NCBI GenBank assembly: GCA_029267825.1
Contig: JAJUHO010000004.1
Coordinates: forward strand, 1-41,257
DNA: 41,257 nucleotides
Source: Oscillospiraceae bacterium
GTDB lineage: Bacteria; Bacillota; Clostridia; Oscillospirales; Ruminococcaceae
Direction: 5' to 3'
Below, piece by piece: positions 18,418-19,253 of the stretch. The stretch's first letter is position 1. The number at the start of each line of letters is the position of its first letter. The notes beneath the pieces were generated by a model. That model was not told the origin of the DNA and did no database searches. It saw only the letters and a list, made by a program, of their open reading frames with translations. The position numbers were made by a program, and so were the translations under genes.

Positions 18418-18861
18418 TTAAAGCTGCTTATACTTCAATGTTTGTGCAACTGCAAGCTCATCGCAGCGTTCGTTTTCAGGATGCCCCGCATGTCCCTTAA
18501 CCCATCTGAACTCAACCTTATGAACATCCAAAAGTTTAAGGAGTCTTTCCCACAAATCGGAATTAAGCGCCGGCTTCTTATCCGATTTTATCCAATTGTT
18601 TTTTTGCCATTTTTTTGCCCATCCGTTTGTCACCGCATCATAAACATACTTGCTGTCGGTAGTGACAACCACTTCGCATGGATATTTCAGTGCTTCAAGT
18701 CCGGAAATCACGCCCATAAGCTCCATACGGTTGTTAGTGGTATTTGCTTCTCCGCCGGAAAGCTCCTTGTACAGTTCGCCGCACCTAAGTATCACTCCAT
18801 ATCCTCCCGGGCCGGGATTGCCGCTGCAAGCGCCATCGGCAAAAATCTCAATCTTTTTCAG
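18418..18861 (-). CDS. rnhA: Ribonuclease HI, probably starting at CTG
   Basis: From CTG at 18861 the protein has 147 residues and opens [20 protein letters not shown], the universal RNase HI N-terminus. The catalytic set falls at Asp9, Glu47, Asp69, His124 and Asp134, nearly identical in spacing to E. coli RNase HI. The first ordinary in-frame start (GTG 18795) would delete Asp9 and strand 1 and give a dead enzyme. No in-frame ATG, GTG or TTG lies between the promoter at 18890-18918 and the conserved Asp. AGGGGG sits 6 bases ahead of the CTG. It removes RNA from RNA-DNA hybrids. The late [18 protein letters not shown] motif is intact. Confidence 0.92.
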
Positions 18862-18889: not shown

Positions 18890-18918
18890 ATTATACCATC
18901 CTTGTATGAATTATGCAA
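18890..18918 (-). promoter_or_regulatory. Sigma-A promoter of rnhA
   Basis: TTGCAT (18918-18913), 17-bp spacer, perfect TATAAT (18895-18890) on the minus strand. The predicted start near 18883 leaves a 22-nt leader carrying the AGGGGG ribosome site, which constrains where rnhA translation can begin. Confidence 0.82.
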
Positions 18919-18967
18919 GCTTTGATTCTACAAGAAATATAATGAAAAATCCGATTTTTTGTCTAAA

Positions 18968-19113
18968 ATGATAAAAGCCCCGCAATAGCGGAGCCTTTAC
19001 CATAAAATTTTGAGAAGAAGAATATGAAGTGCAAAAAATTGCACATTATGAAAAAGCAGTTACCGACTGGCAGCAAACTTTTTAAAATAGTTTACTTAAA
19101 TTTCAACTATCTT
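18968..19113 (-). ncRNA. Candidate stand-alone small RNA (about 146 nt), family unknown
   Basis: The 390-bp gap between rplQ and rnhA holds a complete non-coding transcription unit on the minus strand. It has a perfect promoter (19120-19148), a predicted start near 19113, and an intrinsic terminator ending near 18968. Between them three hairpins can be drawn: 19089-19096 with 19072-19079 (8 bp with one G-U), a small CAGU/ACUG hairpin near 19057-19069, and GTGCAA/TTGCAC (19029-19034 with 19039-19044). It does not look like 6S, 4.5S/SRP, tmRNA or RNase P RNA. rnhA has its own promoter beyond the terminator, so this is not simply its leader. A 27-codon frame inside lacks a ribosome site. Confidence 0.6.
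18971..18998 (-). terminator. Terminator of the candidate small RNA
   Basis: On the minus strand a 10-bp stem (one bulged G, one G-U pair) closes a TATT loop and is followed by TTTTATCATTTT. The G-U pair makes the stem better on the minus strand than on the plus strand, supporting that direction. Confidence 0.75.
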
Positions 19114-19119
19114 GATTAT

Positions 19120-19148
19120 ATTATAACGTTTTCGCGCCTTATTGTCAA
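19120..19148 (-). promoter_or_regulatory. Perfect sigma-A promoter of the candidate small RNA
   Basis: TTGACA (19148-19143), exactly 17 bp, TATAAT (19125-19120) on the minus strand. It matches consensus at all 12 positions, equalled here only by the tRNA promoter. Confidence 0.88.
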
Positions 19149-19195: not shown

Positions 19196-19232
19196 CAAAA
19201 AATCCTGCCCCACAAAAGGTGGCAGGATTTTT
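19196..19232 (-). terminator. Terminator of the ribosomal supercluster (after rplQ)
   Basis: AATCCTGCC (19201-19209) pairs with 19221-19229, extended by AC/GT past a small bulge, followed on the minus strand by six T. It begins about 22 bp past the rplQ stop. Confidence 0.88.
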
Positions 19233-19253
19233 TGTTTATATTTTGTATAGCTT

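Follow-up and report, generated by a model that had tools for sequence, protein, structure and literature searches.

A probable small RNA gene between rplQ and rnhA in one Oscillospiraceae genus, with a proposed mRNA-pairing mechanism

Described small RNAs and the rplQ-rnhA gap

Among Gram-positive small RNAs (sRNAs), RoxS of Bacillus subtilis is described in two papers (PMC5419742, PMC10433868), the second of which states that sRNAs typically pair with ribosome-binding sites. For the Clostridia, PMC10267692 describes SpoX and SpoY, which are among the sRNAs bound by Hfq in Clostridioides difficile, a species in which Hfq seems, according to PMC8406224, to have a wider role than in other Firmicutes. 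Finally, the L17 downstream element (RF01708) is placed by PMC2864571 in potential 3' UTRs of Lactobacillales and Listeria.

We analysed a window (the whole stretch of DNA under study, 41,257 nucleotides) from an Oscillospiraceae bacterium. On its minus strand, a predicted small RNA of about 148 nt (18966-19113) lies between rplQ (19595-19254, minus strand) and rnhA, which starts near 18861 on the same strand. The start of the RNA was placed 7 nt past a -10 box and its end at a terminator. We consider it highly probable that this is a real, transcribed sRNA gene. Its own promoter, its own terminator, the lack of a convincing reading frame and a conservation exceeding that of the flanks very probably make it a stand-alone gene. 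For the fuller reading, an independently transcribed intergenic sRNA of ~148 nt, confined as far as searched to one Oscillospiraceae genus and acting by the pairing mechanism proposed below, we lean slightly towards acceptance.

Like the L17 downstream element, this RNA lies downstream of rplQ, a position that would suit a part of the rplQ 3' UTR. Unlike that element, however, it has its own promoter, a perfect one, beyond the rplQ terminator, which by sequence signals places it outside the rplQ transcript. The rplQ terminator, a strong one (19197-19236, minus strand) recognised in the sequence and by a scan, keeps its stem in the sister species G001 while its loop is changed, and as read from these signals it sets the RNA gene apart from the rplQ transcript. 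An Rfam covariance search of the locus returned no family at threshold, and at E values up to 10 the 381-base region gave 41 matches, all under the gathering score and none of them to the L17 downstream element. We therefore hold a 3' UTR of rplQ to be very improbable. These results bear out the preliminary description, in which the RNA resembled no common housekeeping RNA and was set apart from the L17 downstream element; a match showing it to be an rplQ 3' UTR or an rnhA leader had been named there as contrary evidence, and Rfam gave no match of either sort.

6S RNA (RF00013) is likewise encoded by a small RNA gene and falls in a similar size class, but its model has no match at the locus and the two ends of the small RNA are unpaired with each other in the predicted fold. 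A sub-threshold match to GcvB (RF00022) covered the whole length with 22.2 bits against the 42 needed (E 0.0062); being below threshold and to a family of far taxa, it was taken as a chance resemblance of architecture. SpoX and SpoY are also small RNAs of Clostridia, and the host here likewise has an Hfq gene, Hfq being encoded both in the window's genome (G000) and in G001. RoxS is likewise a Gram-positive sRNA. The pairing feature of RoxS is a C-rich motif; unlike it, the proposed pairing region of the present RNA is UUCUUCUUCUC, and no Rfam family was matched. Lineage-specific sRNAs are common in bacteria and the kind of gene is ordinary; the particular sRNA is one that matches no Rfam family. 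Since our literature search on Oscillospiraceae intergenic sRNAs with promoter and terminator found no paper, a locus with comparative support is a concrete one to test.

Promoter, fold and conservation of the predicted transcript

The sRNA gene is preceded by a sigma-A promoter, TTGACA and TATAAT separated by 17 bp (19120-19148, minus strand), matching the consensus at 12 of 12 positions; our scan thus recovers the promoter of the preliminary description. Base composition predicts ~0.01 sites of this perfect type, spaced by 17 bp, for the window, and two are present, the second being that of a tRNA operon (14185-14157, minus strand), in agreement with the earlier claim that the two promoters are on a par. 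On promoter quality only, the RNA may be abundant, as had been suggested. Genome-wide counts of perfect sigma-A sites came to 60 for the genome that contains the window and to 71 for G001, against one and one for the reversed pattern, a 60-fold and a 71-fold excess, indicating that in this lineage a perfect site is a genuine sign of a promoter. Perfect promoters lying far from genes in these two genomes could reveal further RNA genes. As a separate observation, three tRNA genes (14185-13852, minus strand) follow the one further perfect sigma-A promoter that the window has when spacers of 16-18 bp are counted.

The predicted fold of the transcript contains three hairpins on the minus strand: a 5' hairpin of nine pairs with a 12-nt loop (hairpin 1, 19084-19113; 8 of 200 shuffles as good), an imperfect one that is the weakest of the three (hairpin 2, 19051-19083; 29 of 200), and GTGCAA-TTTT-TTGCAC (hairpin 3, 19029-19044; 4 of 200). 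They are followed by an unpaired linker of 25 nt, UUCAUAUUCUUCUUCUCAAAAUUUU (19004-19028, minus strand), which is the proposed mRNA-pairing region; it is pyrimidine-rich, identical in G001, and has a predicted unpaired probability above 0.7 at every position. The intrinsic terminator hairpin (18967-19002, minus strand) folds well only when read from the minus strand, at -23.5 kcal/mol (z -7.0) as against -10.7 kcal/mol for the plus strand, and a G-U pair in the stem of one strand reads as a C-A mismatch on the other, as had been claimed in favour of the minus strand. The full RNA reaches -44.9 kcal/mol (z -6.35), mostly owed to the terminator; without it, the RNA body has moderate structure only (z -2.2, 5 of 200 shuffles as good). 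The three hairpins described earlier between promoter and terminator are thus all found in the fold, but the body that they form goes only moderately beyond shuffled sequences.

Conservation was assessed in a two-species comparison with G001, the only genus mate among the genomes searched. The two species are well separated, since rnhA carries 24 synonymous changes in 86 codons, next to four non-synonymous ones (29 substitutions in its first 260 nt). Over 199 nt, G001 and the window share 95% identity. From the end of rplQ to the -35 box, 12 of 104 positions are substituted and there is one gap. The -35 and -10 boxes are unchanged (0/12) and their 17-bp spacing is kept, whereas 4 of the 17 spacer positions differ; that the boxes stay fixed around a variable spacer suggests that transcription is under selection. 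The six nucleotides after the -10 box (0/6) and the RNA body up to the terminator hairpin (0/111) carry no substitution. Two of the 36 positions of that hairpin differ, both in the loop, the stems being identical in both copies; beyond it, substitutions rise to 18 of 79, with 3 of 26 from near the rnhA -10 box up to the start.

With 2 substitutions in 147 positions, RNA and terminator hairpin together differ from the flanking non-coding DNA (34 in 200; Fisher p 2.9e-7, pooling the first flank, the spacer and the last flank and omitting the promoter boxes, the six nucleotides after them and the 26-nt stretch), and also from the first 260 nt of rnhA (p 9.7e-5). They do not differ from rplQ (6 in 342, p 0.55), the RNA being as slow-changing as this gene, not slower. 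This comparison supports strong purifying selection acting along the entire length of the transcript. A promoter without conservation in relatives, which would have told against the gene, is not what we found in the single genus mate, where promoter and RNA are kept far beyond their surroundings.

Downstream, rnhA has an extended -10 promoter of its own, TGG-TATAAT with a weak -35 box TTGCAT (18890-18918, minus strand; TTGAAT in G001). The extended -10 at 18895-18890 is identical in G001, and the promoter region 18914-18885 carries 0 substitutions there, though the surrounding stretch varies. Because rplQ has its terminator and rnhA this conserved promoter, the RNA sits between two separate units, and a 3' UTR or a leader is unlikely; both signals had been proposed before, and G001 keeps the rnhA promoter and the terminator stem. 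If the RNA nevertheless served rnhA as a 5' leader or attenuator, transcription from the promoter at 19148 would continue into rnhA through a regulated terminator. Promoter, structured RNA, terminator and rnhA do follow one another in one direction, also in the sister species, with about 104 nt from the terminator of the small RNA to the rnhA start. However, the rnhA promoter comes after this terminator with its 30 nt unchanged in the sister, pairing between the upstream RNA and the 5' arm of the terminator is at chance level (equalled by 42% of 300 shuffles), an alternative fold that we tried comes out ~20 kcal/mol worse, and 28 loci around rnhA in other genomes yielded nothing convincing by the covariance model described below. 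We find a leader improbable. Independently of this question, rnhA apparently begins at a CTG (18861-18859, minus strand), 6 nt past the Shine-Dalgarno sequence AAGGGGG in both species of the genus, and the aligned position holds an ATG in 13 of 20 relatives inspected.

We also considered whether the transcript could be the mRNA of a very small peptide, such as a hydrophobic peptide resembling type I toxins. Two short hydrophobic frames are indeed present on the minus strand: one of 37 aa starting at TTG, whose stop is lost in G001 to give 53 aa, and one of 15 aa starting at GTG inside the invariant part, for which conservation alone does not exclude coding. But no Shine-Dalgarno sequence is visible by eye in the 20 nt before either start, and the 111-nt body has 0 synonymous changes against 24 in the 86 rnhA codons. 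Two further frames begin at ATG: one of 30 aa at the terminator edge has equal length in both species with many residues differing, and one on the plus strand, with a purine-rich stretch ahead of it, has 52 aa in one species versus 82 aa in the other and differing far ends; the scan gave no plus-strand promoter above 9/12 near it. The earlier view that no gene fits inside is upheld, in that no convincing ORF was found within the small RNA, and a peptide mRNA appears quite improbable.

Proposed pairing with mRNAs and protein sequestration

As the likeliest mode of action we propose full trans-acting pairing with mRNAs, on which we stand evenly balanced between belief and doubt. Sigma-A would drive strong transcription of the small RNA, which the 5' hairpin and the terminator would protect. 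The exposed 25-nt pyrimidine-rich linker would then pair, possibly aided by Hfq, with target mRNAs at their purine-rich ribosome-binding sites, and this pairing would block their translation. The complement of the linker contains GAGAAGAAGAATATGAA, which resembles a ribosome-binding site plus start codon and suggests pairing at translation starts.

Candidate targets were sought among 328 gene starts, taken from 400 kb of G001 and the window by a simple finder that retained a frame if its two stops were at least 120 codons apart and its Shine-Dalgarno match was 4 or more, and dropped other genes. Over these starts, 3 of 40 shuffled linkers had energies as good as the real one, and the same 3 of 40 did at 150 nt inside genes. 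The segment CUUUUUCAUAAU, picked after looking, beat 40 of 40 shuffles at starts and 38 of 40 inside genes, a result that a sliding test did not repeat (z 1.1 and -1.6 for overlapping windows). Compared with coding interiors, the most start-biased of 17 12-mers was that at 19023-19012 (AUUCUUCUUCUC), with 7 of 25 permutations as good; for the 12-mer at 19089-19078, which has no pairing role in our model, 0 of 25 were. The best target, galU of G001 at -20.3 kcal/mol, was reached by 23 of 300 shuffled linkers, and this energy was unmatched in 20 shuffled gene-start sets (best -19.8). With the 54-nt 3' half of the RNA, the best real energy (-31.8) fell short of the average best energy over 60 shuffles (-32.5), and galU ranked fifth. 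Thus, among the 328 gene starts sampled, no target was supported beyond shuffled linkers. We note in passing that the galU start of G001 (L196:7807-7850) could pair with the 25-nt linker over almost its full length; the galU start of the window's genome falls off a contig end.

Allowing up to three mismatches, the linker complement occurs at 51 places including two self matches (23 in G000, 28 in G001) versus 10 and 15 for a reversed control, an excess that purine-rich coding and ribosome-binding sequence may explain. Of 30 such loci examined, some coincide with a gene start in one of the species. The pair L092 and L101 (~1501-1533) precedes the gene of the same 332-aa protein in both species; its 17-nt site, partly complementary to the linker sequence, stops 15 nt short of the ATG and gives -15.2 kcal/mol in both. 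This conservation says little, because the DNA there is identical at 240 of 250 positions (96%). Searching for complements of hairpin 2 gave 7 and 8 places versus 12 and 6 in controls.

The result that no mRNA target reached significance would also fit a protein-binding RNA, whose conserved hairpins would sequester a protein that regulates or processes RNA, much as 6S RNA or Csr-type sponge RNAs do, mRNA pairing not being its main job. The invariance spans the whole transcript including the hairpins, beyond any short seed, although at the divergence of G001 such whole-length invariance fits the sequestering and the pairing readings alike. Against a role as 6S RNA, each genome has its single 6S match elsewhere (contig 220 of G000, contig 18 of G001). 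CsrA binds to a GGA motif, and GGA is absent from the small RNA, making a CsrA sponge unlikely. Altogether, we regard sequestration as an unlikely main function, and pairing through the linker remains our preferred reading. A bolder view that takes in either function would be that of a young, genus-specific RNA under near-absolute constraint over its whole length, expressed at the level of the tRNA operon and serving as a protein-binding regulator or as a broad repressor at ribosome-binding sites. This appears to us unlikely; if true, a young RNA without a recognisable counterpart in any of the other Oscillospiraceae searched would have come under the same degree of constraint as a ribosomal protein gene.

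Distribution of the RNA and gene order

A sequence search of 61 genomes gave four with a match at E of 0.001 or less: the window's own, G001 and two others. The latter two (E 2.0e-4 and 2.7e-4), one covering a terminator and the other located in a long low-complexity stretch, were taken as chance. We built a custom covariance model from the two copies, those of the window and of G001, and searched 297 genomes of the family. At E up to 0.1, 11 genomes matched, the two genus members with 188 bits and nine others with at most 34.1 bits. Seven alignments of weak matches were inspected and rejected as relatives, resting mainly on the terminator and loose pairing. Relaxing the model search in 34 genomes changed nothing in this respect (12 genomes matched at E 1, G001 included), and 56 loci with rplQ or rnhA of other genomes gave one match, at E 0.058. 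The covariance check suggested earlier gave no convincing relative in other genera.

A 19-mer scan of genome contigs from 84,980 species, a collection from which the window's own record may be missing, returned three records where ~2 are expected by chance: a sister Oscillospiraceae MAG (JAIHAL010000012.1) and two from other phyla. Phage and plasmid collections gave no match, and a 22-mer was absent from viral contigs. A relative keeping the structure alone could escape these searches; as far as searched, with no convincing relative outside the genus, the RNA appears restricted to one Oscillospiraceae genus.

One weak model match deserves description. Located between other genes in a genome of another genus (L040:1464-1604, genome G169, genus 63; E 0.009), it shares a stretch of 14 identical letters with the linker, placed directly ahead of a terminator, and a poor promoter-like site (9/12) ends 9 bases ahead of the match. 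In a second genome of that genus (L045), the best match lies at a different kind of place, without the 14 letters. We lean to chance for L040, which could be a distant relative.

The order rplQ-RNA-rnhA is kept in G001. Among 29 genomes outside the genus with both an rplQ and an rnhA place, many of them fragmentary assemblies, comparison by eye put the two genes on separate contigs in 26 cases and 16 kb or more apart in the other 3. This order therefore looks special to the genus. More generally, a promoter, a terminator and a gap read by eye can reveal a probable non-coding gene that is unlisted in Rfam. Elsewhere in the window, an S10-Clostridia ribosomal protein leader is present at 35129-35048 on the minus strand, with 44.5 bits versus a gathering score of 35.1.
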